A DNA stretch of 64,000 nt from Obelidium mucronatum (lineage: Eukaryota > Chytridiomycota > Chytridiomycetes > Chytridiales > Chytriomycetaceae): contig JAIVFH010000035.1 in NCBI GenBank assembly GCA_025765595.1, positions 1 through 64,000 on the forward strand. Reading direction: 5' to 3'. Below, one piece after another: positions 29,410-53,509 of the stretch. Position 1 is the first letter of the stretch. Each line of letters starts with the position of its first letter. The translations under genes were made by a program, and so were the position numbers. Below the pieces are notes generated by a model. The model did not search any database and was not told the origin of the DNA. It saw nothing but the letters and a program-made list of their open reading frames with translations.

Positions 29410-29547
29410 TTTTTTTTACGGGATTGCGTTCCGTCCGTGCGAATGTTAAAATTTGCAGTTTTATTGGAAACAAACAAACAAAACATGTTTATTTACTACA
29501 GTCTTTTACACAAAAGAAGAAACAAAAAAAATTGTCAAGAAACTAAC

Positions 29548-31088
29548 ATGAAACACCCCCCTCAATCACTGAGAAAGCAATACAGCCTCAAGTACAAAGA
29601 AAAAGCAGTCAATCAGGTCTTGAGCCTGGCTAATGTATTGCAAAAGGAGAATCCGCAAGCAAGTCTACAACGAACTGGGGCACTAAGCAGGGTAGCATCA
29701 AGCCTGAACATTAATCGATCAATGCTCTCCAAATGGGTGAGATCCTTGAGTTTAATCAAGCAAGATTTAAAGAAAAGAGGGACCATGGCTACTCACCTTG
29801 GCTGGGGCAAACAACTGGCTGGAAACAAAACACGGAATCATAAAAGAATCTGTAGACCAATACCATCACTGAATGACGTGGTAGCTCATTTTGATGCTAT
29901 TCCATCGGTTCTTTGTCCATCGCATACACTAGTGAATGCCCTGTTTCCTACCGAAAAAAAACTATTTCAGTTAGTCGTTGATCAAAGAAATAGAGGCCAT
30001 GCAGTCTCATCAAGGGATCTAAAGAGGTGGATGATGGATTATGTTCAACATCCATTGGCAGTTCTTGTTGCGTTAGCCTTGGACCCTGACGATGTCATTA
30101 GAAGAAGTCAATTTTCTGCCTCAACAAGCTGGAAACGGGGGTTCATGCAAAGGTATCATCTTAGTACCAGAACAGTTAGTACCAGCAGAACTTGTACACT
30201 GGTTTCATTGAGATGTGACCCAATTGAAATTCCTTGTAATCACTCGGCAGCAGTTAATCCCAGCTACCCAAAATCAGGCCAACACAAAACAAACAGAATG
30301 GAATCTTCTAGAAGCAACGCAAGAAGATACATTCCACAAATTACAACTTCTGTTGATCCTATCACAGAATCATTTTACAATTATATCAAAAAGCTACAGA
30401 CACAGCATCAGTTTGCAGAAGAAGATATAATCAACTTTGATCAGACAAGAATGTACTTTGACATGCCTCCCAAAACTACCATTCACTTCAAAGGTGCCAG
30501 CAACGTCATTATTGCCGACACTGGGAATGCTTCTAACGGATTCTCTGTTGGATTAACCTGCACTGCTACTGGAAAAAGACTAGCCCCGTTAATTGTCTTT
30601 AAAGGTGCTAGGAACGGAAGACTTTCGAAAACCTTACCCAGAGAACTTGCCATGGCAGGCGTCTCTGTCACTGTAGCATTTCAAAAGAGTGCCTGGTTCA
30701 ATGAGGACGTTTTGTTGAAGGAATACATTCCTACTCTTGCAGAATATTCTGACAAAAGGAGAATGCTTGTCTTGGATTCCTATAGAGCTCATTTGACTGA
30801 TGCAATGAAGGAGAAATCAAGCAAGCCAATATAGATTTGGTTGTTATTCCAGGAGGATACACGTCTAAGTTACAACCCCTCGATGTAGGAATAATTAAGC
30901 CTTTCAAAGACAGACTCGTCAGGCTCTGGGCAGAATAGATAAGAGCTCCTGACGCTGAAAGTGAGCATGAGACAAACAAAAAAAAGAGGCCATCCCACCT
31001 TGTTGTTTGCCAATGGGTTGAAAAGGCATGGAGAGATTTGGATGCTTCTATTTTTGAGAATGCTTTCAAAAAAACTGGGATTATCTAA
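29548..31088 (+). pseudogene. Pogo/Tigger-type DDE transposase, broken
   Basis: The N-terminus has a CENP-B/Psq-like helix-turn-helix (YSLKYKEKAVNQVLSL...SRVASSLNINRSMLSKWV). The DDE catalytic core is visible: the first Asp in INFDQTRMYFDMP, the second in MLVLDSYRAHL, and the third in KLQPLDVGIIKPFKDRL. The second and third parts are in different frames: a one-base frame change lies near 30810, and after the third motif a TAG at about 30937 interrupts the frame, which otherwise stays open to 31088. I infer an inactivated copy. It could still be mobilised by a related active enzyme, but no terminal inverted repeats were found by eye. Confidence 0.8.
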
Positions 31089-31196
31089 TGGACAAATACA
31101 ATGGTGAATGTGTTAATTCCAATTGAAAGAACAAACTGTTATTCTTGAAGGACCAATTGGTATATAAGAAAAAATGATTGGTGCTTCTTTATTTTT

Positions 31197-32527
31197 CTAA
31201 AGGCGACGCAGTCGTTTTGCATCCACTCCGGCCTCTGAATCAATGTCAGAATCCAAACTTCCATTTTCATTGGATGAGGCTACTGATGAATCATTGTCAT
31301 CAGTTTCCCCTTCAGAAGAATCAGATGCATCAGACAATGATGACGATAAACTTTCTCCACAGTCATCCTCCGGAGAGTATGCCTCTGAAGATGTGTCAGC
31401 ATCTTTTACTTGATGTTTCGCTGATTTCGCCCTTTCGGGACGCCATTCCTCATCCTGTTCCGCAGCCCTTTCCTGCCAGTATTCCTCATCCTTTTCCAAA
31501 GATTCTTCTCTATATTCCACCTCCTGTTTCAAAGATTTCCCCCTTTCCTGGCTAGTTTCCACATCTTGCTCCGATATCAATACAACAAAGTCATCACACT
31601 GACCACCCACAACTGATTCTTCTTTGCTATTGTCCCCCCATCTCAAATCATCTCCATCAGAATCACTGAAAGAAGCTCCCACTGCCATGTCCTTTTGGCT
31701 CTTACCTGTCTCTCCCATTCCACCCTTCAACGCCCCCTTCAAAAATCTTTCGGATTTCGACCCCTGCACCAAGTCGCCATTATATGGCACACGCATGACT
31801 CGCTCCGTCAAACAGCGTGGCATACCTCCCCTGTCGGGCAAGGCAATGTACTGTCGAATGAAATCAAGACATCGAAAGGCGCAATCTAATTGTACATTAT
31901 TTTAGATGCACTTTGCGTGGATATAGTTATTTGAAGAAATTAATACCTGATTCTCCGTGTTGGTCGCCATTCACAATATGAATATTATCGAAAAAGGATT
32001 TTCGTAAATGTGAAACTAGCAAATGTGTTTGTGTTGGCCAAATATCAAAGTCTTTAAGGGGCTGATAAAAGACGACACTTTGATGAGCCGTGCCATGGTG
32101 GAATACAAGAACTTGGAAATGAGTTGGCGCGTAGAGGGTATTTTTAACTCTGTACAATTATGTAAGAGGGAGTATGGTTAACCCCATTAAAAGACAAGGG
32201 GCCGTAATACCTTTTGTGTTCAGACGCGACCAAGACAAACAACATTCCTTGTTCCTGAACCAACTTTTGAAGTGTTGCTACTTCTCTCTGAGTTGGTGCA
32301 AATCCATTAGCCCAGACTTGGAAGTCTGGGTCATTGGCATAAGATTTCTTTTGCTTGTTGTCCTTGAATACAAGGGACCTGTTGTAGAAGAAGGCAGCCT
32401 CGGGCTCAAGAAGCAGCGCTTGAAACTGATCAAGTGTTAAGCCTTCATTGGTGTTTACTTTGGAAAGGTCTCGCGTCTTGCCCAGAGCCGCAAGGTTGAA
32501 TGGTTGGAGCATGGGCAAGTTGGCCAT
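31197..32527 (-). CDS. CE-clan-like cysteine protease C (no H3 tail)
   Basis: Three in-phase exons (32527-32211, 32149-31947, 31885-31197) give 402 residues. The protease-like motifs are split by introns: PTHFQVLVF with H116, then NGDQHGES-DC with Q169 and C175, followed by FRCLDFIRQY. This reproduces the H ... Q-x5-C pattern of Ulp/adenain-type proteases and aligns with proteases A and B downstream. The last 200 residues are Ser/Glu/Asp-rich and carry no known domain. The start MANLPMLQP has no histone-like tail. It is head-to-head with protease A, 57 bases apart. Target is unknown. Confidence 0.6.
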
Positions 32528-32584
32528 TTTTCAAATTGATTTTTTACAAAATTAAATATATTTTTTGATTGAAAAACACGCATC

Positions 32585-34175
32585 ATGGCAAGGACGCCAC
32601 AAACAGCAAGCCGGAGCACAGGGGGTCATGCCCCAAAGCGGGACCTTAATCCTAAGAAGCCAAGAGGGAAGCAAGGTGAGATCAATGTCTATGGTGGAAA
32701 TGCTGGGGTTAATGTCTCAACACATTTACAGTTGTGAACGCAGGGTCATCTTCCACCTCAACTCAAGCAGTGACAAAAAGCAGCAACAAAGGAAAGAGAA
32801 AGAGAATTGGAGCGGGGGCAGCCAAGAAGAGGAGGAAGAGCGCAGCAGTGGCGGAAGAAGAAGTGGAGGAGGAAGACGAGCAAGATCACGAGGATGAAGA
32901 TCAAACAACAGCAGGAAAGCGAAACAAGAGGTTTCGGAAGACAAATTTTGATAGCGATGACGAAGAGCAGGAGGTTTCTCAGGAGGAAGACAAAGACCAG
33001 GAAGAAGGCAGTGAAGAAAATGACGAAGAAGTGCAAGGAGTGCAAAGCTCTGTATCCTGCACAGGTAAAGGACCTAGGAAAAAAAAAGGTGGCAAATCTG
33101 CCCCTGGTGATTCTGTAGTTTCTGGTCGTGATGGGAAAGCAATTTTTGATTTGGTCGCGTTAGTGGGTAAGAGTTTTCATGAACATCAACTGTAATTGTA
33201 TCTCTAATTGTGTGGAATAGAATCCAGGGACTTTGACAGGTACCCATACAAGGAAAAAACGATTGACTATGCAGCCAAGTGTATGAATGCATTCATTGAA
33301 TTCGGGTGTTTACTTGGTACTCGTGAAAACGCAAACCCCACGTCAAGCATGCCACGTATTCCTGTGTATTCGTTTGCTGACCTCAAGCGCGTGTCTGGGT
33401 TTCAGGAACCCTTGCCTTTCAAGGGTGGGCTTCCTGTGAATGGATTCGAAGAAAGGCTTGTGTCCCATGCAACACAATACGTGATCAAGAAGACTTTGGG
33501 GTTTGTTTCGCCAGAGCAACAAAAGAGGGTGTTGCAACGAATGAACGAGGAGTCCAAAAAGGAGTGGGGCAATTGTTGCTGTGCCAGTGTTAATTTCTGC
33601 AGAGAGGTAGCAGCTCAAGTCGAAAGACTGGGTGTAGCCATCATTCATGTTGTCTCTGAAACGGCAAAAAAGTAAGTGACTCTTATCATTGAATACTTCT
33701 AACGGCATTCTTATATCAAAGCGGTAAAAAAATCTCCCCAAGTCACTCTGTGGTCGTTGTGGTTGAAAAAGAATCAGTCACACTCTTCCAACCCCATTTT
33801 GAGGGATTCAAATGGCCTCAAGTGACTCTCCCGCTTCTGGCTAACCTGGCTGCCAAGTATACCCGTAATCTGTTTGTTACAAACGGCAGGCAGACCATCA
33901 CACATGACTGCTCCTACCACTGCTTGGACTTTATTCGGTTCTATGCCGCTCTTTCTCCCAACAATGGGTTTCCACGCTGTCAAGCAAGAAAGTACAACAC
34001 TGCTATAGTTGATGGCAATTACCCGATGAAGGCTAGAAATAGGTTTTCCAAATTCCAGGATACTAAAGGGTATAGTAAGGTCTGGAGTGAGTTTGATGAA
34101 GCAATTCAACAATTGCTTCTTGAAAAGGATGCAAGTTATGAGGATTCCAATGACGGTACTTTTCCTGGGGTTTAG
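32585..34175 (+). CDS. Cysteine protease-like protein A with degraded H3-like tail
   Basis: Four in-phase exons (32585-32675, 32732-33166, 33221-33671, 33722-34175) give 476 residues. The first 20 residues, MARTPQTASRSTGGHAPKRD, follow the histone H3 tail position by position (ART-QTA--STGG-AP), but Lys4, Lys9, Lys14 and Lys18 are changed. A Lys/Glu-rich acidic stretch follows. A region shared with protein B (DSVVSG-DG-AI-DLVAL, SMPRIPVY, PFKGGLPVNGFE) leads to the putative catalytic part: PSHSVVVVVE with H334, then NGRQTITHDC with Q383 and C389, then SYHCLDFIRF. The Q-x4-DC spacing is that of C48/C5 (Ulp1/adenain-type) proteases. The usual acidic residue is a Gln in FQPHF, so activity is uncertain. 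Confidence 0.65.
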
Positions 34176-34205
34176 TTGTTACCTTTTTTTTTTTGTGTTT
34201 GTATC

Positions 34206-34450
34206 CACCGCGGCCATAATAAAATCAAATAAAATCACTTTTGGGATTTATAATCATGTAGAAACACGATCCAAGTGTTGTTGGGAGGTTCCCGTTGCGT
34301 TGGGGGTTAAAGTTGGGTTTTATTTTACTTTGACCGCAAGACATCACCGCGGCCATAATAAAATCAAGTAAAATCACTTTTGGGATTTATAAACATGTAG
34401 AAACACGATTCTAGTGTTGTTGGAAGGTTCCCGTTGCGTTGGGGGTTAAA
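34206..34450. repeat. Two 106-bp direct repeats with CACCGCGG start
   Basis: Bases 34206-34311 and 34345-34450 are near-identical, beginning CACCGCGGCCATAATAAAAT and ending in GTTGCGTTGGGGGTTAAA. They lie between the 3' end of protease A and the 3' end of the Cys-rich gene, in the 361-base gap without a gene. A shorter version of the left end recurs twice near 38.2-38.5 kb. Confidence 0.9.
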
Positions 34451-34536
34451 ACTCTTCAGGGTGGAACTATGGAACTAAGAAACCACAAAAGACTTGCTGT
34501 TTATTTTCAACTCATTAACAAAAAAAACACGAATCA

Positions 34537-36033: not shown

Positions 36034-36139
36034 TGTGCTCGTTTTTTCTTTTTTTTTTTGAGTTCTTTGAAAAAATAAGGGGACTTTTGAAATTGGTTCC
36101 AAAACACCAAACTTCCAAGACACTCATTTCTTTTGCAAA

Positions 36140-36638
36140 ATGGCACGCAGCAAGCCAGCCCCGAAAGCGCAACAGAGCCAGAAAACACCAAGAAGAACCG
36201 CTACAAAAACCGTTGCAGGAACCGCTACAAAAACCGCTACAAAAACCGTTCAACAACAGGAGTAGTCAAGAACCCCACCGCTACAGACCCGGCACGGTAG
36301 CGCTGCGAGAGATTCGCAAATACCAAAAGAGCACAGATCTGCTTATTCGAAAGCTGCCTTTCCAACGATTGGTACTCTTGCGCATTTGTGACACTTGTGG
36401 CCTCTTAAAACACTAAACATACAATCAACAGATTCGAGAAGTCATATACGAGATTGATCCAAAACTGCAGTATCGAATCCAAGCGTCTGCCCTTGGTTGC
36501 CTGCAAGAGGCCACAGAGGCGTATTTGGTGCGTTTGATGGAGGATGCCAATTTATGCGCAATTCATGCAAAGCGAGTTACCCTCATGCAAAAAGATATTC
36601 AACTTGCACTTCGTTTAAGAGGTGAACGTGACAAATAA
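36140..36638 (+). pseudogene. Divergent histone H3 gene, tail out of frame
   Basis: The core is unmistakably histone H3: [31 protein letters not shown], then across an intron (36372-36431) [41 protein letters not shown]. The upstream ATG at 36140 opens [20 protein letters not shown], a Lys/Thr/Arg tail of 41 residues ending at a TAG at 36263. The core is in the +1 frame relative to the tail, and the short TGVVKNP segment between is in the third frame, so two single-base losses would explain it. A GT-AG intron cannot restore the frame. Core residues differ from normal H3 (for example YEIDPKLQY), so it is a variant, not a copied host H3. It is a pseudogene unless the break is a sequencing error or recoded. 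Confidence 0.75.
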
Positions 36639-36642
36639 TGTT

Positions 36643-36834
36643 TTGGTTTAAACATTAAAAAATAAAGTACTTTGCAATTCTATCCAGTTTGGTTGAATGA
36701 TGATTTAGAAAAACAACGTGATTTATTTCAAATTTCAAATTTGGTTTAAACAAAAAATAAATTAATTTGGAATTCTACCCAGTTTGCGTGAATAACATGA
36801 AATGAAATAAATCACATTGTTTCGTTCTAAATCA
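36643..36834. repeat. Direct and inverted repeat cluster between H3 and SET genes
   Basis: Two direct repeats start TGGTTTAAAC (36643-36698 and 36742-36793). Interleaved with them, 36701-36728 and 36805-36834 form an imperfect inverted repeat: TGATTTAGAAAAACAACGTG and its partner, whose reverse complement reads TGATTTAGAACGAAACAATG. The order is direct-inverted-direct-inverted. It may be a hairpin MITE, a terminal structure or a two-sided 3' end/promoter element. Confidence 0.75.
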
Positions 36835-36935
36835 ACAAATTCTGCCGACATTATTGGTTGTTTGATGAACTTGTGTTTTTTTTTCTTTTTGTTTGACCAA
36901 AAAAAGTCCCCAAAAAAAATTCAGGAAGTGAAAAT

Positions 36936-37884
36936 ATGGACAACAACAAGACATTCACCTATGGCACCAAGCAGCGCATTGAGATTGCCGTCGCCAACAT
37001 CATCCAGGATCAGAGACCGAAAGGGGTCAAATCCAAAGACTGGCCACGCATCAAGGCGGCATGGGCAAAGAAGACTGGAGCCAAGAAGCCAAAAAAACAA
37101 CCAGTCCCTAAACCAATCACCTACTGCACCACCGCTACTCCAACTCCATTGTGGAAAAGTTGCTTACATGTCAGGAAGATGCCGAGAGTGCTACAATCGC
37201 CACTACTACATGGAGCAGTCGGTGAAAGTCATTGCTGCCTTCACTGGCGAGACCAACGTCTCAAAGTTGCTGCGTGCCGAATCATGGATCCATTCTGGGA
37301 ACCCGTTAATGTATAGTTTCCGTGGAAAGTGCTCAACAGATGGATGCAGGGATATGTGCGTGTTGACTCACCCATTGTGCTCAAGTTGCTCATCGGATCA
37401 ACTGGGTTTGGGAGTGGTTGGATCGCTGATCCCTGGCGGTGGTTTTGGGTTGGTTGCCACCAAGGACTTTGAGGCAAAACAACGTCTTGGTGTGACTTAT
37501 GGAAGGCGCCTCCTTTCTAGAAAGGAGAAGGATGACATTGAGGCTTCAGAGGACCCCCTGCAGCAAGCACGCGTCGCCTATTTGATGGAGCTGTCAAAGG
37601 ACACATTTATTGATGGATTTGGGGAAGACTCTGGGGTACTGCGATTCATCAACAATGCTCCCAATGCAAGCCTGGTGAATTGCCGTTTTGTCGTGGACAG
37701 AGTTAAAAAAACAGTGTCAGTGGAAACCATCCGAAAAGTTGCTGCTGGCTGTGAGTTCTTTTTGGTGTACAGGTTTAATTCAAACGGAAATGGAGTGTAC
37801 TGGAATCAAATCCACTCCGACTCTGCAGAAAGACTTGCTCAACGCAAGCAGATTATTGCAGCAATGAAGCATGTTGATTTGTGA
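36936..37884 (+). pseudogene. SET-domain methyltransferase-like gene, frame break
   Basis: The ATG frame encodes a basic N-terminus (KGVKSKDWPRIKAAWAKKTG, KKPKKQPVPKP). About 30 bases after a run of seven As near 37090 the sense sequence passes into the +1 frame, which continues to the stop at 37884. That part has a Cys cluster (HCGKVAYMSGRCRECYN, CSTDGCRDMC, PLCSSCSS) and then SET features: GGGFGLVATKDFEAKQRLGV, FIDGFGEDSGVLRFINNAPN and VAAGCEFFLVYRF, which parallel the G-x-G, RFINH-x-PN and GEEL-Y motifs of lysine methyltransferases. RFINNAPN lacks the usual H. One A fewer in the run would join both frames. Known viral SET proteins methylate H3; a histone target is inference. Confidence 0.6.
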
Positions 37885-38218: not shown

Positions 38219-38510
38219 CACCGCGGTGGTACAATCACAAATTCCTGAGTGGAAAACACTTCTATAAGCGTTTTAAAGTGTTTCTAAAAGGTGGGCATGG
38301 GTTTCCCTTTGTTGGAATCTGTTTTGGTGAAATCTTGCACCTCTCCGCTACAACGCACAAACACACTGCCACCATGGGCCCAACTCGCAAAACCATGCAA
38401 ACCAATAGAAAGCAACCATGAAAATTCATTGGTAAGCGCTACAAAGATTTTTGTGCTTGCCTGAAATCTTTGGGTGAGTTTTACTCTCAACAGTCTTACC
38501 GCCACCGCGG
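38219..38510. repeat. Recurrent CACCGCGG motif, degenerate copies
   Basis: CACCGCGG occurs at 38219-38226 and 38503-38510 as well as at the two 106-base repeats at 34206 and 34345. In three of four cases it is followed by CC-x(1-3)-TAA-AATCA. About 60-90 bases before each 38-kb copy lies an ATTTTTGTGCTT segment, so a longer diverged repeat is likely. It sits in the gene-free stretch 37885-38660, where I see no other feature. Confidence 0.65.
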
Positions 38511-38660
38511 CCCTAAAATCACAGAAAGACACTTGATCTAGCATTAATAGATACGTAATAACAAAATTATGGTCTCAGATTCCTTAGTCCCTGTGCCACA
38601 AGGCTGGCAATAATCATAAAACAAGTCAAACCCTCTCCAACAACCAATGACTCAACCGAA

Positions 38661-39060
38661 AAATCCCATAATAAATGTCAAAACTATATTAAAAACCAAG
38701 TTAAATATTCCTGAAAGTCTCAGGCTTCCTGGAGTGGCCGTTGGTTTTGTTTTAATTGATTCCTGCACAGTGTACACAAGCCCCTGTCGGCCTGCACGAA
38801 AAATCCCATAATAAATGTCAAAACTATATTAAAAACCAAGTTAAATATTCCTGAAAGTCTCAGGCTTCCTGGAGTGGCCGTTGGTTTTGTTTTAATTGAT
38901 TCCTGCACAGTGTACACAAGCCCCTGTCGGCCTGCACGAAAAATCCCATAATAAATGTCAAAACTATATTAAAAACCAAGTTAAATATTCCTGAAAGTCT
39001 CAGGCTTCCTGGAGTGGCCGTTGGTTTTGTTTTAATTGATTCCTGCACAGTGAAAACAAG
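38661..39060. repeat. 140-bp tandem repeat, 2.8 copies
   Basis: A 140-base unit starts AAATCCCATAATAAATGTCA at 38661, 38801 and 38941. The third copy departs from the consensus after about 110 bases. The array lies downstream of protease B. It does not encode a long ORF. Confidence 0.95.
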
Positions 39061-39277
39061 GGATTGCCCAACAACCCCCCACCTTCGACACCCTTTATTA
39101 AAAAATACGTTAACATTCAGTAAATCTCTTTTTTCATTACTTCTTTTTATTGTTTGAATCTCATTCATCCAACAAGTTATTCTTAGGTACAACGGTAAAC
39201 AATGCCAAAATCACTGAAATGCGGAAGGATTTTATATCCTTTAAGACATCCATTGCTGCCACTTAATTGAAGACCAC

Positions 39278-40488
39278 TCACTCTTCAACTGGCTCTTCGT
39301 CAGATGTGTAATTCAACGACGTATCACTTTCGTAGCTGAGATCATCTGGATCCTCAAGACTAGCATACTTTTCTAACACCATTGGTTGGATAGCGTTGTC
39401 AAATGCTTCCCACACAATTTTATATCCAGCAGCGTCTTGAAATTTGGCAAATTTCTGTCTTGCCTTCGTTGGGTATTCCCCGTTTATGAAGGCCCGGTCA
39501 AATTTCCTCGCTTGGCACCTGGGGAATCCAGCATTGGAGGGTAGCAATGTGTAGGAACGAATGAAGTCCAAGCAGTGATATGAGCAGTCATGAGTGGTAG
39601 TTTGTCTTCCGTTTGCTACAAACAAGTTGCGAGTAAACTTGTCATTCAGTCCAGCAAGAAGAGGGACGGCGGGCCTAGGCCAGTGAAATCCCGAGAAATG
39701 TGGCTGAAAGAAGAGAACAGATTGTTCCTCAACTACAACCACAACGGAATGGCTTGGGGAAATCTTCTTACCGCTATAATACAAAATGAATTACGCCTTT
39801 ATAACCAATTACCAATAACCAAATTCACTTACTTTTTCTTGGTTTGAGATACCAAATGGACAATGGCCATACCCAACTCTTCCACTTTTTCCATGACTTG
39901 TTTGCAGTATTCGGAAGTTGCATAACAGCAGCCAGCCCATTCCCTTTTGGATTCCTCGTTCATGCGTAAGAATTCTCGCTTAGCTTGATCTGCTTTTCCA
40001 TACCCAAGAGCCTTCCCCATAACGTATTTGGAGGCATGTGGTGCAAGTCGTGTCTCAAACCCATTCACAGGCAGCCCTCCCTTGTAAGGCCGGGATTCCG
40101 GAATATTACATGCTTCTTTAAGGTCAAGGAATCTATACACGGGTATGCGTGGCATTGCTGAGGTTGGGTTGATGGGGTTATTGGCTCCAAGCGAGCAGCC
40201 ATGATCAATGAGCAATTTCATGGCATCAATGGCATGCATGACGGTTTCAACGTTATAGGGCCCTCCAGCAAAGTCATTGGATGCTATTGACGTCCTTTAG
40301 ATGTGAATGGTTTGACCCCTTAAATGTGTACCTGCAAGAGCTACCAAATCCGAGATTGCAGCACCATCGGGTCCTGATACAACAGAATCGGCAGGAGGCT
40401 TTCTTCTTCTCCTTTTCCTTGCTACAAGTTGTTTCTTAGGCGCTTTGCCTCCTGTGCTTTTTCCTGCTGTTTGCCTGGTGCGTGCCAT
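39278..40488 (-). CDS. Cysteine protease-like protein B with H3-tail mimic
   Basis: Three in-phase exons (40488-40332, 40283-39833, 39773-39278) give 367 residues. Counting from Ala1, the first 20 residues after Met match the histone H3 tail at 17 positions: ARTRQTAGKS then TGGKAPKKQL; only Lys4, Arg8 and Arg17 are changed and Lys9, Ser10, Lys14 and Lys18 are kept. A basic ARKRRRRK follows. The shared region (DSVVSG-DG, SAMPRIPVYRF, PYKGGLPVNGFE) leads to PSHSVVVVVEE with H211 and NGRQTTTHDC with Q260 and C266, giving the same spacings as protein A. The usual acidic catalytic position is again Gln (FFQPHF). The C-terminus is acidic (SDEEPVEE). Family: CE-clan (Ulp/adenain-like) by motif spacing only. 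Target is unknown. Confidence 0.7.
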
Positions 40489-40659: not shown

Positions 40660-42156
40660 TTATTTGAAAAGCGCCATTTGAGCAATACCAAACTCAAACA
40701 AGTGATCTTCGCTATGTCTAATCATTAAATTCTGCAACACTCCAAAAAAATTTGAAACTACAGAGCCCTTGTCTTGTTCATTCAAAGCGTCCCAGCACAT
40801 TAGGTACCCACCAAACGATCCAACCTCTAGCGCCCTGAAAGATTTGCTTCGGTGATCCCAAACAATGTCCAATCGGCAAAAATCCAGATGGGTCAGAGTA
40901 TAGGCGGAATACTTCTTGAGTTTGTGAATAACTTTTGAACAGAAATCAAGAACATCCTGCATGCGATCAAGATCCTGGTCCTTTGTTGGCTCAGAGTGCA
41001 TGCATCCAGTGAGTGCATCAATATAGAGTTTTGCCAAGTGGGTCGCGTGGTGGGATTCCCCTTTTGCTTTGGTTGCCGCTACTAGCGCCATGTATTGGAA
41101 CTCTTCTTGAATGAAATAGACCTTGAGCTCAGACAACGCCACGGATTCAACGTAATCCTGACATATCCAAACATTAGCCAGCGGATTTTGGAGTGAATTT
41201 GCCTTGATGTATTCCTTCAATTTGGGATTGGATTTAGGTTTGACTAACTGATTCTTGGCTTCGCTGGACCAATTGCGCTTGATGATTTTGCCCTTAAAGT
41301 GGCCAAATCCTTTAGCCAAGACTGCGCTTGTGTTCAGCAGCTCCGTTTCCAGGATCAGACCTTTGAGTATTGAATGGAGAACAACCTTGTCACAGTCTGC
41401 GCGAATGCTGTCTGGTTCGGGAAACAGGATCACGTTGTTTTCTAATCCAAAGAGCTTCAAATGGCGGAGAAATTCGTCCATTTCTTCGGCCCTTGTGATG
41501 TCCTGCACCATTTGCGCCGAGATGTTGGGAACCAGGAAAATATCCAAGGTAAGCGGTATCCTTTCAAGAAGCGACTTGAATGACCAAGTTGGTCCACTCG
41601 TTGTTCGAAGTTCCTTCAATTCTTCCCAGGACACAAAATACAGGTCCACAAGTGCAGGTCTTTGGTTCCTGAGGCGCGCAAGCATATCAAGCTCCTCACG
41701 GATGCACTGCTCCGCATCCACAAAGTCGGGGTTGTTGGCAATCGGTTTGTTGAAGATGGTGGTCGGATTAGATGACAGAAACTTTGCAGACTCTGCAGTT
41801 GGGTGTTTAGTGAAGTAGATGTTGGCATCATCTCCAGCTCCAAATAAGGGATGAGGCAGAAACAGGATCACCAATCGTTTGGGGGTGTATTGCTTGGCCA
41901 GCCAAGCAGGGGCATTTGTAAAGTTGTGGCAGTGGTTTTTAATACGAAGAACGTCAGACGTTTTCCTCCCAGGTACTTCAAGGGCCGAACAGCACTGCCA
42001 CTCAAGCCGGGCTGACTTTCGGCACGAATTACAGCGGCGAGTTTTTAGACTGATGTCACCGTCTTGGCAAGCCGGATTGGAGCAGATCCACTCAAAGTTG
42101 GAGGCAGGTACAGGTGCTAGCGGCTTGTGGTTCATTTCAAAAGAGCGAATGCACAA
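40660..42156 (-). CDS. Zinc-ribbon plus ATP-grasp-like protein
   Basis: A single uninterrupted 498-residue ORF. Near the start a Cys-rich part (ICSNPACQD, RRCNSCRK, WQCC) suggests a zinc ribbon. From about residue 290 there is GHFKGKIIKRNWSSEAK, then VWICQDYVES, SELKVYFIQEEF and, near the end, FCRLDIVWDH with LEVGSFGG. The order resembles ATP-grasp enzymes (lysine-rich nucleotide strand, Q-x-Y-V, R-x-D and E-x-G metal motifs), but the match is loose. It is intronless, unlike its neighbours. It could be an unrecognised family instead. Confidence 0.4.
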   Translation of the reverse strand: MCIRSFEMNHKPLAPVPASNFEWICSNPACQDGDISLKTRRCNSCRKSARLEWQCCSALEVPGRKTSDVLRIKNHCHNFTNAPAWLAKQYTPKRLVILFLPHPLFGAGDDANIYFTKHPTAESAKFLSSNPTTIFNKPIANNPDFVDAEQCIREELDMLARLRNQRPALVDLYFVSWEELKELRTTSGPTWSFKSLLERIPLTLDIFLVPNISAQMVQDITRAEEMDEFLRHLKLFGLENNVILFPEPDSIRADCDKVVLHSILKGLILETELLNTSAVLAKGFGHFKGKIIKRNWSSEAKNQLVKPKSNPKLKEYIKANSLQNPLANVWICQDYVESVALSELKVYFIQEEFQYMALVAATKAKGESHHATHLAKLYIDALTGCMHSEPTKDQDLDRMQDVLDFCSKVIHKLKKYSAYTLTHLDFCRLDIVWDHRSKSFRALEVGSFGGYLMCWDALNEQDKGSVVSNFFGVLQNLMIRHSEDHLFEFGIAQMALFK

Positions 42157-42248
42157 ATGCTGGAGATTTTTATAGTCTCAACATTGAACAATACAAATCA
42201 GTCAGTCAGTCAGTCAGTCGGTATAGTAGTTTTTTGATTGTTGTTGTT

Positions 42249-43900: not shown

Positions 43901-44147
43901 GATTGGCTTTTGATTTGGTTCCCACCTCATGTTACCAAGTGTCCCCAAACGGGGGCATGTAGGTTTAACTACCGCCATGTCTCTAATCAGAGTCATAGCG
44001 GGAGCAATGGGCTTTGTGGAGAACAATAAGGAGAAAATTTTCTCCTTCATCAAAAATCCATTGTCTTGAAAATGTGCCAAAAAAGTAGCTAAAAACTGTG
44101 ACGCAAGACTATCACCCACCCCTGAAATTGGAACACTTTCAACAAGC

Positions 44148-47100
44148 ATGCAGCGCCTCCATAGCAAGCCCAAGGCCAACCAAGTGAGTACTGGATCCTT
44201 GATTTTCTCTGTTATAGGCCTTGTGCACTCACTAACATTTGATGCGCACCAACAGATGCCAGCCCCTTTGATGACAACCGCCATCACTCCTTGCTTGCAA
44301 GATGATCAAGGATTGCAAACCATGGCACTTCTTGACTGTCTGTGGCCATTCAAGTGGGGTTGTTGCCAGACACCCTGCCCCTTGTCTCCAAAAACAAAGC
44401 TTACAACAACACATGAACAGTCGATGCCAGCAATGCAACCATTGCTTCAAGAACATGGCACAGTCATGTCTTTTCCCGTGGTATGTGACTTGAAGGTTTT
44501 GGTTTTGATTGGGTGTGTTTGTTAATTTGTTTACACACACTCACACATACTTCAACATTTTCCAAAGTCCTCCTCCACCTCCAAACAGGAGAAGGTCTTG
44601 AGACACGCTGCTTGCATCAAGTCTAAAGTCCATGTCCGGCTTTTCAACGGGACAACTCTGGCCCTGCAGGTGGGCCCTGGTACTACTGTTGGTGATGCAA
44701 GACGGATGATTTATTGCAAGACTGGGGTGCCCACAAAACAAACATATTTATTATATCAATCCAAAGTACTAAGAGACTGTTTGGTGCTGTCAGGTACCTT
44801 TTTTATTTTTTTGTTATCTTTTACATTTTCCACACAAGTGACCCTAACCCATACTACCATTTTACAGATTGTGGAGTCGATTTTCTCTCACAACTCACCT
44901 TATCGTCGCATTTGCCTGGAGGCAGCACCAGGAGGAAAGCTCAAAGACCAGTTGATGGTGGAGGTCCTTCTAATCCACCTCCAGTTGTTCCGCAACCGGT
45001 TGTTGATGCCCCCATTCCTCCACCCTCCTCCTCGTCTACAACCAAGCAACCAATGTCGCGCAAAGGAAAAGAAAGAGCCATTGACATTGTACAGGAGGCC
45101 ACCACCCAACCACCACCACCACTGCCAAAACGCGCGAGGGCTCAACAGAAGGAGGACTCAAACAAAAAATCAAAGGTAAAAAATTGTTCACTTTTTTACC
45201 ATCAATCACATCACGTGCTTATTTTTTTTCTTATCTCTAGGCCAATTCTGACATACCTGCCCTTCCTGCTGGCTCCTTGATTGTAAATGCCAATGGAACT
45301 GTAGCCCCTGCTCCCCCCCATCTTGTCCAACGCTATGCTAGGAAATACGACACCTTTGTTCGATCGGGGGGGTCGCAGCAGAAATGTCAAGACTTTTTAG
45401 CCCATCTTGACACCAGTCCTGAAGTATTCAACAACTTGGAAACTTGCCTTGCAGAGTTTCTCCAAGTTTTCCAGTTTGAACACCCTGCCAAGAACGCGCT
45501 GATTCAAATCAAGGAGGTGATTCACCATCAGCAGCAAGTCAACATCAACACCAACTCTCTGGACATTGATGGTGGTGTGATGGTGCCAACCACCAAGTTT
45601 GAAGTGGTGCCCTGTCTGTACAAGTGCCCCCAAGGCTTTCATGATGGAATTGACCAGTGTTCCTGTTTTACTGGAGATTGGAGCTGGGCAATCAACAACG
45701 CATGTCTTGACATGCTACAAGCCAACAGGGACATCAGCCACTGCACTCTTCAACAGGCTATTGGACACCCACAAGCCAATTACCCAAGAATTGTGTTCAT
45801 GCTCTCGCTCAACCGCTACCTTTATTGTCCAAAGTTACTGGTGGACTATGGTGTTTGTGCACAACCACTCTTGGGGTCTTCTTCCAAAGCTTGTATGGAA
45901 GCCACTCATCAAGCCATGTATGCCATCACGCTCAGATTAATTTCGAAAGCTGGAAACTACCCCAATCAACAGGAACCTGGGTCCAATACTCCTGAAATTT
46001 CGAAACAACTGGTTGCTGGATCGGATGCTAGCCAGTGTGTCACCAACAAGGGAATCATGAAGATTCTTGGGAATATTGTCAAAGTGGGGGAGCACTCCAT
46101 CTTTTCAATCAACCACCCTGCTACAGCTCCCCACAACTTTGAGTCAGGGACATTCCCAACTTGGAATAAACGCGGTGGTGGCGGCACAGCAAACTGGATT
46201 CTGGATCCACCAAAGGCTCCTATGCGGGACAGAGACTTGAAGTTGCTGGACTTTCTGGTCTTGACCCAAATCAAGGCTACTGTTGGTTGTCTGACTGGAG
46301 TGGACCTATCTGATGAAGAATGGTCCACAGCCTATGAGTACCTCAAGAATCAAGATGCCGCTCGTGCTTTTGGACCCTGGTTGGCCAGACGAAACAACTA
46401 CCAGACAGCAAAGTTGCATCAACTGTCTCTGGCTGATGCGGTGGTTCGACTTGGGGCTAAACAGCAATATAATCCAAAGGGGAGCATCAAGTTTACAACA
46501 GCCAAGATTGTGGCTTCTTCTGAGTGGGTGGATGCTGCAAGACTCTTGAATACTCCCATTCACCACTTCAGGACCCAAATAGCCAACAACAATCAGCACA
46601 ACTTGGCCACTGAGACTGATGCTTTGGGTAATGTGGCTCTTGTTGATGCTGAAGAAGATGTGGAGATGGTGGAGGCAATTCTGGAGACTTTGCCTGCGGA
46701 CCCTGTGGCCATGGAAGTGGATCCTCCAGTTGTTGAGGATGATCCTAATGGAAATCCCTGTCAGCTTGTGGTTGATAACCAACCAGTCTCAGCAGCTTCC
46801 TTCAGTCAAGCCTGCTCTTTGTTCAGTGAGCTCTCTCTACTGGCCAAACTCTTTGGGATTGGCTTGTCACTGGTCAACAAGAAGTTAATCAGCCGGTCCT
46901 ACAAGATCCAGCGTGAGGGAATTCATGTTGTGTACCTGCGAGCTATGGATAAACTGACTGAGTTGGACAAGTCTCCAGGAACGTGGCACCCAGGAACAGT
47001 CATGTACAGAATCTATACCAAAGATCCTGACTTGGCCAATCCAACAAAGTCAATCAGTGTTTCAGAGGTTGCTGTTGTTTTCAAGAGAAGAGCTGACAAA

Positions 47101-48350
47101 TCCAATAGCATCTCAAAGGTAGGCGTTATTCTTAACCATCTCATTTGTTGAGTATTGGCCAATTAAATCAATCTATTTTCCCCCAAAAGCTGGTTCCCCT
47201 CTTTCGTGTCTTGGAGTCCTCCACATTCAGTCCAAGTGCTGCCAACCCCACTGTTGCTCAAGTCAAGGTCCAAACCATCCACTCCCTCTTTTACAAAAGT
47301 CACTTGTATTTGAGGGATTTCCAAAGAGCCACAACATGCTGTTTTGACTTGGGCCAAGAATCTTTGTCAAAACTACACACAATCAGCAAGCCGCTGCCAA
47401 CCCGTACTGAAATGCTTGACCCCAAGTCAAAGACATGGGATTCAATGTCCTTGCGAAAGTGGGGGCTGGATAGGGCCATTGCAGCTGTCTCCCCACAGAC
47501 TATGGCAACAGTTGATGTTTCCCTCAATTCATTTCTTGGGAATACCTACAGAGACAACTTCAACTTGCTTTTCAAAAAGTTGCTCAAATCTCATCCCTCA
47601 GTGGCTGGAATTGGCACACCATCTAGCAAGCTACTCATGGGGGCTCTCGACTCGTCATTTGGAAGAGGGCACATCTTCAGGGCTAGAACGTCTGCTGATT
47701 CCATAACCAAGCTGGACCTTGAAGATTTAACTGTTGTCAATCAGAGGTGGCTTGGAATTGTGTATTCCTCCAATATTATCCCAGACTTTCCACCAGGCAA
47801 TCAGTTCACTTTGACTATGGACTTTTCTCTGAGCTCAACTGTCCAGGAAATGCCACCTGACGATACTCCAAATTTCCACTTCAAGTTCCAAAATCACACT
47901 GTTAATGGACTGGAGATTCAGATGCAAGACAATGTATCTGCAGGAAAGCAGCGAAACATTCAACCCCTGGTTCTGTCCTTTTCAAGTCAAGGTCTTTATT
48001 CTTTCAAATTTGCACCTGGTTATCGAGGGAGGCACATGTCTGGTAAGGTCAATCCTTCAATACATGGTCAAGCTGGTGTGATTTCAGCACTCTGGAATCA
48101 GCTAGAAAACAACCCATTTGCAGCTCTTTTTGACCATATTGATGGTTTGGTCCAAGGGCATGGGCGGGTTGCTGAAGATGAAGAAGTGGTCAGTGATGGG
48201 GTCAAAGATGGGGAGGATGTTATTGAGGAGGTTGCTGAGGATGATGTCCAAGATGATGTGGCAAAGAAGGATGTAAAGAAGGCAAACAAAGAGGAGAGGA
48301 TTAGAATGGTAAATCTTAATCACAAGTCTGTTACTGGAAGCAAAACTTAA
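44148..48350 (+). CDS. Large protein with internal ubiquitin-like domain
   Basis: Five in-phase exons (44148-44480, 44589-44793, 44868-45175, 45241-47118, 47190-48350) give up to 1294 residues. Residues 123-198 align to ubiquitin over all 76 positions without a gap: conserved are G132 (Ub Gly10), GVP at 157-159, K170 (Ub Lys48), LSD at 178-180, and the last residues LPGG (195-198) at the place of LRGG. A Pro-rich basic linker follows, then about 1,000 residues that match no family I know, ending in an acidic tail (DGEDVIEEVAEDD). The start is uncertain: the first ATG of the frame at 44148 is used, but later in-frame ATGs exist. A GG end inside a longer chain suggests processing by a ubiquitin-type protease. 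The Fanzor gene begins 71 bases after the stop. Confidence 0.7.
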
Positions 48351-48421
48351 CCAAACCATACTAGACTACCAGACGAATCCTCAAAATCAGCAAAAGCAAA
48401 AGCAAAAGAAAACCAAAAGAG

Positions 48422-51400
48422 ATGGATGGAGCAGCGATGGTGCAAGCAGATAAAGCCCAGCTGGCAAGCTTTAATCACAAGGTAAAAGATCTGCCATCGG
48501 ACTCAAATGGTACATTGGTGGACACAACGTAAGTTCAAAGGCAATTAATGACAAATCAATACTCAACCAACAAATCAACAGACTGATGGAGGCAGCCCTT
48601 GCGGATATGATTGGCTCCCGAGAAAAGATTGCATCAGGTGCTCTTGAACACAAGCAGAAAGTTTTGAATAGCTACTCTGCAAAAGGTGAATAACTAGTCA
48701 CTTAACCAAATTAATTTAAATTCTAAATAACCTCAAAATATTGCACATTTCCCAAAGCCAACGTCATGGAGGGTGATGCAATAACCATGAAGGTTTTAAT
48801 TGAATTGGCCACTGTAATTTTTGACACTGGCCGAGTGCTTGTTCAAGGAGCCAGCAACCTTTTTACCAAGATCCATTCAAAGGCTGTTTCACTGAATCTC
48901 CCTGTTCTTGTGAATGATCAACAATCCCTGTCACTGACTGAAAGTGCTGTAGCAATCACCAAGTTTTTACAGTCTGATGATTTCAAGCGATACTCAAACC
49001 CTCTGGAAGACACCAACATGCTTGAAACTGATCCGGCTCTATTGTTGCAAATTGTCAAGAGTCTGTTCAATGCATCAAAGGGATCATTTATTAGTTCATT
49101 GCTTATGGTTGTTAAAGAGCTGCATTCGTTGACCTTGACCAAGAGGTCAAGCTGGTCCAAGATGATGGTGTTGGCTCTTATTCTTGATGTTGAAGGCTCT
49201 TGCTATGCGGATGATTTGGAGGAATTAAAAGATGCCATGACTGCTGGAGCTGTTGGATGGATCAGGGATAATGATGGGGCAAACATGAACCACTATACGC
49301 CTTACCGCTACTACCCTCTGGATCAAACTCCCCATGGTCTAGCTGTGCTGAGGGAGTCCATCATTGATTCTCTCCTGTTGGAAGGGAATGGATTTATCAT
49401 CCCTGATAAGGCTGCTCTCTCAGCTTTCTGGATTTCTTCCAAAAAAAACTTGCCACAATTCAAAAAGATTTTGGAAGAAAAGTTCAAAGAACCTGACATT
49501 GCTGGAAAAGGGATGGATGGTTCCAGTGATGGAGTTTTATTGTACAGGGTGAGGCCCCGACTTCCAGCAGACCTTGACATCCAGGATGTTCGTGAAACCC
49601 ATCAAAAGAAAACCAGGTTGTCAACCAGTGAAAGCTTGGAGGACCAGGCCGCCCTTGCTAGGAAGGAAAAACTGTTGGCCTTGAAAAGATTGGAGGAGGA
49701 AGCCTTTTCAGTTCTTAAAAGTGAGGCTGCTCAGTTTCTCTCTGACTTTTTATGTCCTCGGTTTGCGGATTCCAATGTACCACTCAGTGAGGCTGAAACC
49801 ACCTTTGACGCAAGTCTTGAATTCATCATTGAAACAGCTCCATTCAATGAAGTTGATGGCTTGAAGTTGGGTACTGAACATCTAGTCACTCTCGACCACC
49901 TCTCTCCTCACGAAAAAGCAATTTACTCGTACCTCTTGAGTGTACCACCTGAAGCAAGTGCAAAATACCGTCATAATGCCATCATGACTGGAGTGCTGCC
50001 AAATACTTCAAGCAATTTTGTTGCCAGGGGTCTGTTTGAGTTTTTGAGCGGTTTGGCAGTGTCATTTGTAGTTTCAGATGCTGGAAACAACGATGTAGCA
50101 GTTGGAGGTGTTGTTCATGATGAAGCCAATGCTGATGCGGAGGAGGGAGAGGGGTTAGACTTGGGGGATACATTGGCCAACAGAGCCAAAGAACAATTGA
50201 GGAGCAATATTCTATACAATACCATGAGCTATCTCAAGCCCGTTCAGTGGTCTTTGGCAAATTACCACGGGGGTGGGAAACTTGCAAGCCGGAGTCGCAC
50301 TGTACCTACTCATCCATATTCAAGCTTGATTGATATGGCAAAAGATGATTTTCTTCATTTGCTTGATGGAATGGATAAGCTGGTGAATGCGGAGTGGATG
50401 TTATTTGGAGATGGAGGGAAAATACAGTCAAAGTTTGGAGAATCTGCCAAAAATATTGCCAGATTCTGTCAGAATTCTGCAAGAAACTGGAAGGCTCGTC
50501 ATTTGTCATGGGCTTCCATTCATGTTAAAGCAGGTATTTACAGTTACCTAGGTCTTTTTATTTCAACATCAATTTATTAAAAGACCATACCTCAAGGCAA
50601 ACCCTTCCTTGAACAGCTTGCATCCAGTAATCGCAAGTATTTGTCTCTTGATGGGAAAATCATTTTTCCAGCGCCTGTTTCCTCAATGCGTCGTGGCTAT
50701 CAACAGGCTTCCTTTGACTTAACCTCCGGTACTCACATAAATGTCGGAGCTTGGTTTATGGACTCCATTGATGCCCCTGATATTCTCAAGAAATCCCCTC
50801 TTGATTTCGACTTTGAACCCGTTCCTCTGTCTGGTTTGAATCTGATGCAATTGGCTCTTCAGCGTGGACCAGACAACCACAGGCGTCTTGTTACACAGCC
50901 ACTTGGGTACAAGATCAGTGTCTCCGAGAAAGCAAAGATTGTGTTGCAATTGCAAAACCAGAGCACTGTCAATTTCCCCAGGGATAATCGATTTTTAAGT
51001 TATTGTCCTGGTGAACTCCAAGTCTCTCTGGATCGTGATACTGGGGATTACACCGCAACATTGCCCCTGACTACTGTGCACATGACAGTGAAGGAATTGG
51101 AGGCAATTAGACCAATCTTTGTCAACCGCATGTATCCTACACACAAACTGAAACCAGCATCCAACGAAGCCCTTTTTCAAGCTATTGTCGAACCTTTGAC
51201 TTCTGCAGTCAAGAACTTGGCCGAAGCAAGGCAGGCCTTTGCCAAAGACAAGTCTGACTCAGCTGCCCTCAAGACTCTTCAAGAAGCTTCACATTTGGTC
51301 CAGTATTTGCGCACCAAGTTCAAGGAAACCAATTCTCCCAAGTATCGACGAAAGTTTGATTCATTGCTGGAGACATTGAGCCGCAAGTTCAAGTACAAGT

Positions 51401-53257
51401 CAACCAGATATGATCCGACTGTTATGGATCCAGATTCTGCGACTTTGTTTACATCCAAGGCTGGCAACTTTCGCAGCCCTCATATATGGGTCCAGAATCC
51501 TCCTGCTGTTGAGAGAGACCATCAAGAAAATGAACATGACCCACCTTCTCTTAAAAGCTCCTTCTCTTTGGCGTTTGGAACCACAAGACTCGTCTTGTCC
51601 AGTGATCCAGGTGGAAGAACTGTGGAAACTCAGCAGGCATCATCAGGTCATCGAATTCAGATTGCTCCAGGGTTTGAACACCAAATTCGATTCATGCAGG
51701 GTCAAATTGACAAACTTCAGTCTATGCGTGATTCGGACCTTGAGAAGGTTGATGATGTCATTGATGCAAGACAGTCTGTTTGTGAAGCTGAACGACAGAT
51801 GGATCAGTGTTTGCTGGGGGTTGGTGGCCTGGACCAAAGAGATTGTGAAAGATCCCTATTTGATGCAAAGAAGGAGCTTGATGATCTGCTGGATAAGATG
51901 CGGAAAGAGGCAGTAGCTGAAGAAGGGGTCCTGTATTCCATACGGATTAAGACACTGCATGAAAAGCTTGCAAGATATGCCAAACAAGTGCAATTTGACG
52001 CAGCAAGGTGGAATTCCAGTGCAGATGTCTATATCACCTCCGATTTCAATTCCAAGTCAACCAACAAAGTGAAAACTTCTGGAAAGCAGGGAATACCAGG
52101 TTTGTATTTTTACTTTTTGATGTCCAAGAATAATACCTAACTCTCTAGGGTCTTTTGTCAGGATTTGTCAAGACTGTGCTTTCATATGCAGCCCATGCCA
52201 CAATTCGTCGAAAAACTACCATGATGGCATTCAAAAAATCTCAAAATGCAGATGCATGGTTTGAGAAGGGGTCTCCTGGAAAGGGGGAAATCAAAAAGTA
52301 CTTGGCTGAACCACAGGATGATGTTACTCTGGGTCGTGTAGGAAGAATCAGGATAGTTTTGCTTGTTACCGAGTGTGGTATTTGTCCCAACCTTTTTCAA
52401 TTTGGTATGCATTGGTTTGTTTAATGAAATCCATGTTCATCAGGCTCTACAGTTCTCTGTTTCTGTGGTCGCATTAGCAGAATTGGGGCCAGCAAAACTT
52501 TCAAGTGTTCAAATCCAAGGTGCGGATTCCAAATGGAAAGGGATCCGAAATCTGCTTTGTTTATTGAAAACCTGGCTTGGACAATCTCCTTGATGCGTGT
52601 CTCACATGACGTTGACGAGCTTTGGAACAGTGGGATGGGTGGCTATGGTGGTGATGGTGGTGATGGTGGTGACGGTGGTGAAGGTGGTGGCTTTGGTGAC
52701 GGTGGTGATGGTGGCGATGGTGGTGATGGTGGCGATGGTGGTGATGGTGGTGAAGGTGGTGATGGTGGTGATGGTGGTGATGGTGGTGATGGTGGTGATG
52801 GTGGTGATGGTGGGAGTGATGTAGGTAGTGGTGTGAACAAAAGTAAACACGGTACAGGTGGGGATTCTAAATCAGACGGAGGTGTCACTAGTAGGGGTAG
52901 AAGCAGGGGGCGTGGCAGAAAGGGTACCTCAACTCTTAAACAGTTGGAAATGACCGTTGACAGTCCCTCAAAGCTGTATTTGAAACCAATGACAGTTGAT
53001 GTCTGCCCTACAAGCCTGGTGATGCGTGCGTTACTTGCATATTTGCTCTTTTTGATGAGCACAATTTATTTGAGTTTCTTGCTCAAAACTATTGGCCCAT
53101 ATGCCTCCTTTGGAGCGGTCAACACGGTGATGCCGAATAATCGTGAGTCTTTATTATTTTTCCTTTTTTTTCTGTGATTTTTGTTAACTTGACAATTCTA
53201 CCTGACAATTTGTTTGGGTCTTTCTTTTCAAAATTAACAGTACCCCCGCAAGTTTAA
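48422..53257 (+). CDS. Fanzor (eukaryotic TnpB-like) nuclease, giant form
   Basis: Seven exons in consistent phase (48422-48528, 48582-48685, 48758-50533, 50597-52099, 52162-52377, 52444-53142, 53241-53257) give about 1473 residues. The RuvC core is complete: LVLSSDPGG with D999, LLVTECGSTVLCFCG with E1234 just before a zinc ribbon (C1241, C1243, C1257, C1262), and CGFQMERDPKSA with D1269, matching the TnpB/Fanzor pattern E-x-(T)S-x2-C-x-C ... C-x4-C-x4-RD. In many Fanzors the RuvC-II Glu sits next to the zinc ribbon, as here. Upstream are about 990 residues of unknown fold, much longer than usual. A (Gly-Gly-Asp)n tract and an Arg/Gly segment (SRGRSRGRGRKG) follow the core. By family knowledge Fanzors are RNA-guided DNA endonucleases. 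The acceptor AAGAG before ATG 48422 would also allow joining to the upstream gene in phase. Confidence 0.85.
52645..52820 (+). repeat. GGTGATGGT minisatellite inside the Fanzor gene
   Basis: About 20 copies of a 9-base GGTGATGGT-type unit encode Gly-Gly-Asp repeats in the last coding part of the Fanzor gene. Slippage here would change length in whole codons because units are multiples of three. Overlapping ORFs on other frames here are shadows. Confidence 0.93.
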
Positions 53258-53509
53258 CGCGCTCAAATACTCCTGATCCAGACGACAACCAACCAAAAAA
53301 TTCTGACAAGCCCAATCAGCAGCTCCCCCACGGGCCCCACCATGAAATCCGTCCAATATTGTGTACTCACACACAGACACAATCATCTCCACAACAGCAC
53401 CATAGAGTCAGGTTTTCTGATACTACTATTGGCCTTGTACAAATTCCCCAACTGACATCACCTCCCTCTTTGCTTGTGAAATAAAGAAAATGAATGTGTA
53501 GTATTTGCT
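53258..53509 (+). other. Fanzor 3' flank, candidate guide-RNA region
   Basis: The 250 bases between the Fanzor stop and the PAQR stop contain no ORF. In TnpB and Fanzor loci the guide RNA is made from the region at the 3' end of the nuclease gene, so this is the place to look for it. I see no clear hairpin by eye. Confidence 0.25.

Follow-up and report, generated by a model that had tools for sequence, protein, structure and literature searches.

The window analysed here is the whole 64,000-nucleotide stretch of contig JAIVFH010000035.1 from the aquatic chytrid Obelidium mucronatum. Between an MFS-transporter gene on one side and an HlyIII-like gene on the other lies an element of 23,749 bp (29494–53242, + strand; ends approximate), which sequence comparison across contigs identifies as a giant DNA transposon present in several copies, this being one of them. 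The first-pass annotation had drawn an island at 29410–53509, with a Fanzor nuclease, a ubiquitin-fused precursor, three proteases, a divergent histone H3 and a SET gene. The island is real, but the element ends at about 29494 and 53242 instead. Every part named is present, and one was missed, a pogo-type DDE_1 transposase.

The transposase gene (29548–30834, + strand) is pogo/Tc5-like and matches Pfam DDE_1 with E = 1.7e-5 (24.9 bits against a cut-off of 22). In the window copy, as we read it, the C-terminal part does not continue in the same frame. A transposase match is located just inside the left terminal inverted repeat (TIR) at nine other loci too, and none was found in the copy on contig C54.

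Three protease paralogues, two of them H3-tailed, had been proposed, and the comparison bears this out. Protease A (32585–34175, + strand) consists of the H3-like tail MARTPQTASRSTGGHAPKRDL, an acidic/basic linker and a clan CE-type protease, and is deposited as BDR26DRAFT_918956 (P0002, 476 aa). Protease B (39281–40488, − strand) joins the H3-like tail MARTRQTAGKSTGGKAPKKQL to a clan CE-type protease; for its C54 copy, the deposited model is BDR26DRAFT_936627 (P0001, 366 aa). Protease C (31197–32530, − strand) has several exons and no H3 tail, and one of its exons distantly matches protease B (E = 1.2e-6, 39% identity). The tail matches PDB histones with E = 1.5e-5. With Met included, the N-terminus holds 17 of 21 H3 residues in P0001 and P0003, 14 of 21 in P0002 and 2 of 21 in P0005, the C149 protease, whose deposited model begins downstream of its H3 tail. 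A1-R2-T3 is retained in eight of nine tails, and K4 is changed to R, P or A in five of the nine. Rhizoclosmatium globosum has an H3-tail protease as well (BCR33DRAFT_837334), and the tail is conserved across genera. As a side observation, a separate profile search returned three Obelidium proteins, oddly without the Rhizoclosmatium protease.

Among the folds listed, the protease matches those of clan CE with a weak model (pLDDT 52.6), and a Foldseek search with this model gave no match at E ≤ 0.001. His210, Gln225, Gln259 and Cys265 are invariant in all four proteases compared. Gln225, placed by spacing only, looks like the clan CE acid position, which is usually Asp, Asn or Glu. With the protease as query, Pfam returned nothing over the cut-off and a PDB profile search returned no match.

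The divergent histone H3 gene and the SET gene of the first pass were likewise recovered. The H3 gene (36140–36638, + strand) has two exons and matches Pfam Histone with E = 2.5e-12 (36189–36620); as we read it, the N-tail and the core sit in different frames. The SET-domain gene (36936–37884, + strand; Pfam SET, E = 2.3e-8) is closest to KMT5A/SETD8. With its C54 copy as query, every PDB hit at E ≤ 1 (14 distinct sequences) is a KMT5A/SETD8 (best E = 7e-4), and relative to that copy the window gene reads with a frame break. SET is found at seven genome loci, including C31, C16 and C41 (twice), contigs that lack a match to the ubiquitin-Fanzor gene described below. A 505-aa open frame (40660–42177, − strand) is ATP-grasp-like by eye only, with no Pfam match over the cut-off (RTC4, E = 0.091) and no NCBIfam match.

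The gene that we call Ub-Fanzor (44589–53179, + strand) is modeled with ten exons (44589–44793, 44868–45175, 45241–47118, 47190–48308, 48422–48528, 48582–48685, 48758–50523, 50584–52099, 52162–52377 and 52444–53179). The model rests on predicted splicing, and its 5′ start and exact C-terminus are provisional; it encodes 2,650 aa without an internal stop. In the first-pass annotation, the ubiquitin-like domain belonged to a separate precursor. The gapless domain ending in LPGG stands, whereas the model puts it in the same frame as the Fanzor-like part, with no separate precursor. The GT/AG borders are conserved across four copies, apart from one acceptor in C90. Frame breaks occur in three of the four long copies, and the deposited C54 model (P0004) begins downstream of the ubiquitin domain.

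The ubiquitin-like domain (44625–44923, + strand), which is split by one intron, has 74 residues and aligns without gaps up to ubiquitin residue 76. Single-ubiquitin PDB chains match it with E from 3e-7 to 8e-7, and Pfam ubiquitin matches one exon with E = 1.5e-6. All seven copies that extend to the LPGG carry it, and the tail reads HLPGG, in contrast to RLRGG. The dN/dS is 0.50 in the ubiquitin domain and 0.02 in the zinc-finger part.

The RuvC/zinc-finger part (51604–52544, + strand; DPGGRT ... STVLCFCG ... ERD) forms the Fanzor-like domain. The Fanzor motif given in PMC3627910, D-X(125,275)-[TS]-[TS]-X-X-C4 zinc finger-X(5,50)-RD, fits as D2170-X237-STVLC...ERD, and when the protein was shuffled 2000 times, its loose zinc-finger-RD part never appeared. 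The strict CxxC...CxxC form is absent, since the zinc finger begins with a CxC pair. Pfam TNB lies under its 26.3-bit cut-off (E = 0.0023, 18.5 bits), the TnpB-like L79 in the PDB matches over the zinc finger (E = 0.43), NCBIfam gave no match for the protein, and an AF2 model of the Fanzor exon is unusably low in pLDDT (42.8). Judged by motif, the Fanzor of the first pass is probably present.

The 5′ part of Ub-Fanzor is found at eight loci, and in all seven that can be read leftward the element also includes an H3-tail protease. On C36 this protease gene contains a stop; the eighth locus, C90, ends at the contig end. The idea that the genes belong together thus holds at every readable Ub-Fanzor locus of Obelidium. 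In Rhizoclosmatium, a word- and length-filtered search found the H3-tail protease but no Ub-Fanzor. That search found Ub-Fanzor nowhere outside Obelidium.

Two copies are complete between TIRs, one of 25.1 kb (C54:93541/118625) and one of 19.4 kb (C67:32482/13046). Both have TA at both ends, with no empty site to separate a TA duplication from the TIR. The right boundary of the window element is common to C54, C67 and C90 and carries the right TIR TACTGTTAATTTTGAAAAGAAAGAC (53218–53242, − strand). The left boundary (29494–29496) is common to C21, C23, C99 and C14. The modules are found again on further contigs, with identities of 90–98% in most cases and 86% on C36, and third codon positions take most of the substitutions in the long exons of the four copies compared. 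Both observations mark the pattern of the island as more than chance. The genes are multi-copy in the Obelidium genome, not the single-copy conserved host genes that would have spoken against a mobile element, and with the sharp ends this led us to reject a host-gene cluster. The earlier reading of a mobile element agrees with what we see, a multi-copy, TIR-bounded unit whose genes travel together. We consider it likely that the island is a giant pogo/Tc1-mariner-type cut-and-paste transposon equipped with what is probably an RNA-guided nuclease of its own and with a set of chromatin- and ubiquitin-related genes.

The left end of the window copy (29494–29540, + strand; TACTACAGTC...AATTGTCAAG) is a terminal repeat that has diverged and belongs to a sister subfamily, and the standard TIR has no match there with up to three mismatches allowed. 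Furthermore, the left TIR lies 1.7 kb from the protease C block in the window copy, versus 4.7 kb in C54, 5.3 kb in C75 and 6.2 kb in C136. Both observations would fit a window copy made of two parts, a sister-transposon fragment with the transposase only (29494–~31161) beside a left-truncated giant element (31162–53242). Against this, the same order with the transposase at the left end recurs at the nine other loci, and the subterminal AATTGTCAAG is common to the left and right ends. We keep the two-part arrangement as a possible but not favoured description of this copy.

At the right end, a segment at 53030–53242 (+ strand) shows conservation and some covariation, which makes it a candidate omegaRNA scaffold running into the element end. 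Positions 53071–53220 show zero substitutions and 19 gap columns among four copies, and the segment is partly common to short relatives of about 600 bp. Paired cells reach 97.3%, versus 23.5–48.0% with partners slid by 1–3 columns, and the covariation score was matched by none of 500 shuffles (eight sequences, with a tool caveat on relatedness). These values, and a position at the Fanzor 3′ end that matches Spizellomyces, argue for an RNA. On the other hand, the last 200 bp might be kept as a transposase binding region or through gene conversion, as any transposase needs terminal sequence. Only eight sequences were compared, and further pair types are no better than shuffles (494 of 500 equally high). 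The both-sided changes are few: one is common to a trio of near-identical short elements, and the remaining two are seen in C3 alone, which also breaks three pairs. The folding z-score is a modest −1.8, and −2.1 on the opposite strand. Retention as a binding region or by conversion is therefore a serious, if minority, explanation of the segment. Rfam gave no match at the gathering threshold; a sub-threshold snoRNA match (E = 0.44) was rejected.

For the giant transposon with its candidate guide RNA, we envisage the following course. The transposase would move the element at TA sites. Guided by an RNA whose transcription starts in the right end and runs out into flanking DNA, Fanzor could then cut the vacated site, and repair would restore the element. 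The H3-tail protease may cut off the ubiquitin-like leader at the LPGG-STRRK junction, and it might also strip ubiquitin or SUMO from chromatin proteins, while the H3 tail would bring it to H3-binding enzymes or readers. A K4-replaced tail could dock without K4 methylation. Because HLPGG stands in place of RLRGG, the leader could be a poor substrate for host enzymes, which would make leader and protease a private pair. The lone protease of Rhizoclosmatium and the apparent Gln at the clan CE acid position count against so tight a pairing. We infer self-processing and chromatin docking of element proteins, and the gene content suggests that the element reaches into the host chromatin and ubiquitin systems.

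The same transposon could instead carry the H3-tail proteases, SET and H3 as passive or independently useful cargo, in which case the ubiquitin-like domain would be a leader that aids folding or solubility and is removed by deubiquitinases of the host, without any private pair. The variable gene content between the ends, the SET loci on contigs without Ub-Fanzor and the Rhizoclosmatium protease without a detectable Ub-Fanzor point that way. The H3-tail protease at seven of seven readable Ub-Fanzor loci, a tail retained across genera and the departure of LPGG from RLRGG speak against it, and we regard cargo as rather unlikely. Still more speculative is the full proposal of an orthogonal circuit, in which an RNA-guided transposon nuclease is made as a Ubl fusion and activated by the element's H3-mimicking Ubl protease, its maturation coupled to chromatin and the SET and H3 genes acting on the same tail; we put it forward as a long shot. 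An integrated giant virus or Starship-like element would suit the size, and giant viruses often carry SET and ubiquitin-like genes, yet the TIRs and the DDE_1 transposase oppose it and no capsid or polymerase was found among the Pfam-scanned frames, a part of the element's frames, so that this origin is highly improbable. From 49 pattern stretches, a viral-contig scan with the protease alignment gave a sole locus, L049, whose match is no open frame and whose contig reads like that of a bacteriophage, and which was rejected; the scan with the Fanzor exon found none.

Parasite proteins with a short H3-like tail are known from viruses, where influenza NS1 is an example of a histone mimic. In contrast to NS1, the H3-like stretch here spans at least 21 residues, is N-terminal, and sits on a protease in a transposon. 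Neither a clan CE-type protease with an H3 tail nor a Fanzor-like protein with a ubiquitin-like domain was found in the open-access literature searched. The Tc1/mariner elements with Fanzor1 described by Bao and Jurka (2013, PMC3627910) resemble this element in their TIRs, mariner-type transposase, Fanzor (probable here) and chimeric halves, and their TA target has a possible counterpart in the TA at both ends of our two complete copies; those in the accessible text differ in carrying an endonuclease or methyltransferase; ubiquitin, protease, histone and chytrid have no occurrence in its main text. The Spu-1 Fanzor loci of Spizellomyces punctatus similarly have inverted repeats, their omegaRNA runs into the right end as our candidate would, and ghosts of about 550 nt with diverged repeats are comparable to our short relatives; unlike here, the locus is described, in the portion available, as ~2.1 kb with a single ORF and no transposase found between the repeats (PMC10432273). 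Ubl-protease domains also ride on DNA transposons as Ulp1/OTU proteases in Ginger1, Mutator and Crypton (PMC2836005, PMC3212892) and as VTD deubiquitinases in Helitrons (PMC9741609). There, as far as the available sections of these papers go, they accompany transposase domains or RepHel domains or are separate peptidases, and an H3 tail is not seen. SETMAR likewise joins a SET methyltransferase to a mariner-type element, but in the accessible account it is a transposon-derived host protein, not cargo (PMC9062482).

If true, our reading would mean that a single mobile element brings together an RNA-guided nuclease, ubiquitin processing and histone mimicry. As this family unites ends, transposase, nuclease and candidate guide RNA, the role of Fanzor in eukaryotic transposons would become testable in a chytrid.

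Comparison across the O. mucronatum genome (48.3 Mb, 694 contigs) revealed that the island is present in several copies. Its right end is sharp at window position 53242, is common to the copies on contigs C54, C67 and C90, and terminates in the inverted repeat TACTGTTAATTTCAAAAAGAAAGAC. The genome contains 54 matches to a 20-base form of this repeat at no more than two mismatches, versus 2 to the backwards control. Two copies run in full from one terminal repeat to the other, one of 25,085 bp (C54:93541-118625) and the other of 19,437 bp (C67:13046-32482). The best explanation, which we consider probable, is a giant cut-and-paste transposon of the pogo/Tc1-mariner type, carrying a probable RNA-guided nuclease and a chromatin/ubiquitin toolkit. 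Inside the transposon, a tandem array of ~283-bp units (C149:61521-64489, C118:93955-94942, C67:24336-25323) differs in copy number among copies that are otherwise ~97–99% identical over the left half. Direct repeats of ~140 bp, at window 38657-39076 and 34206-34450 and also in other copies, are possibly recombination units driving modular shuffling.

In our model of the Ub-Fanzor gene (44589-53179, + strand), a ubiquitin-like domain is in frame with a Fanzor-like protein. Ten exons of the window copy yield a 2,650-residue frame with zero internal stops in a spliced model whose 5' start and exact C-terminus are provisional; the remaining three long copies contain frame breaks. The GT/AG borders are preserved across four copies, except for one acceptor in C90, and by reading, a second in-frame placement is possible at junction 50523/50584. 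The first-pass annotation had described a gapless ubiquitin-like domain ending in LPGG, and this domain indeed aligns without gaps to ubiquitin residues 3–76. The deposited C54 model leaves this domain out, and the domain's exon runs on into the first part of that model.

The C-terminus matches the Fanzor pattern given in PMC3627910, via D-X237-ST-xx-C and RD. The profile match is weak (TNB, E=0.0023, under the cut-off), as is the comparison with L79 (E=0.43). Judged by its sequence, the protein is likely Fanzor-like. Nei-Gojobori estimates over 4 to 8 copies gave a dN/dS of 0.02 for the zinc-finger part (3 nonsynonymous and 33 synonymous changes summed over 6 pairs), 0.22 for the RuvC-type part preceding it, 0.27 for the N-terminal block and 0.50 for the ubiquitin domain. 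The Fanzor C-terminus includes a long Gly-Asp repeat (52645-52813) whose length varies across copies.

Among four copies, the right end at 53071-53220 shows zero substitutions and 19 gap columns, and the preceding bin has eight substitutions. When the last 293 bases were compared with the genome, 19 of 34 matches began at query 135–147, near window 53084-53096; in three short elements the two ends lie 595, 609 and 622 bp apart. The arrangement mirrors that of the S. punctatus omegaRNA (Fanzor guide RNA) and ghost elements (PMC10432273), with a candidate RNA here. We compared pairing in eight right ends: four long copies, three short elements and a diverged end on C3, the latter four from a set of 14. 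Pairing holds in 97.3% of cells, versus 23.5–48.0% with partners slid by 1–3 columns, and three pairs carry both-sided changes. The covariation score was matched by 0 of 500 shuffles, and the number of pair types by 494 of 500. One both-sided change is common to the three similar short elements and two occur in C3 only, so the independent events are few; the C3 end additionally breaks three pairs. Single-strand folding yields unremarkable z-scores (-1.8 on this strand, -2.1 on the opposite one). The right end may instead be conserved as a transposase binding region or by gene conversion, a tentative alternative with appreciable weight. That few events underlie the covariation counts for this alternative and slightly against the transposon with a probable RNA-guided nuclease.

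On the left, the window copy starts at 29494 with a diverged repeat; within two bases, this boundary recurs at four more loci (C21, C23, C99, C14). A DDE_1 transposase lies directly inside it, its C-terminal part out of frame by reading. Transposase matches directly inside the left-end repeat were found at nine more loci (C136, C75, C118, C149, C67, C73, C53 and two on C6); in the C54 copy the left repeat is present without a transposase match. Since the left repeat lies 1.7 kb from the block of protease C (the protease without an H3-like tail) in the window versus 4.7–6.2 kb in C54, C75 and C136, the window copy may be a chimera or two pieces side by side. Stretches of ~6.9 kb at C21:266265-273149 and C23:360971-367884 carry the window's left end (98%) and match a 0.3-kb block at 38370-38656 (92–94%); in C21, other genes fill the interior.

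Eight loci hold 5' parts of Ub-Fanzor (C35, C54, C67, C90, C75, C149, C118, C36), and in seven of them the same element contains an H3-tail protease, a clan CE-type protease with a histone H3-like N-terminus. C90, whose contig ends 307 bases upstream of the shared block, was left out of the co-occurrence score. The C36 protease has an internal stop, and protease pieces occur on C53, C14 and C392, contigs with no matched Ub-Fanzor. The SET gene, nearest to KMT5A/SETD8, is present at 7 loci. For the stretch of the H3 gene, in which tail and core do not share a reading frame, the genome search found no close match in another copy, only weak DNA matches (67–69%) on C28 and C528. Profile scans gave no family match for several open frames; a conserved 505-aa frame (40660-42177, − strand) looks by eye like an ATP-grasp enzyme and had no family match above the cut-off. 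Outside the element, window 152-8833 holds a ~4.25-kb tandem duplication, in which 300-nt samples set 4248 and 4245 apart are 98–100% identical. About 10 copies of a 64-bp tandem repeat separate the duplicates, and the minus strand carries a RING-finger frame there.

Ubl proteases on transposons are already known (PMC2836005, PMC3212892, PMC9741609); searches of open-access literature listed none in which a transposon carries either an H3-tail protease or a fusion of ubiquitin to Fanzor. By analogy with known families, the element would insert at TA, and the Fanzor would help restore the element copy. The element's own protease could cut the Ub-like leader at LPGG, its H3 tail may dock, and the SET enzyme may take part. 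H and P occupy the ubiquitin R72 and R74 positions of the Ubl tail, and K4 is lost from five of nine H3-like tails. These departures are the main hints, at the level of sequence, that the element may possess a private leader/protease pair and a methylation-proof tail.
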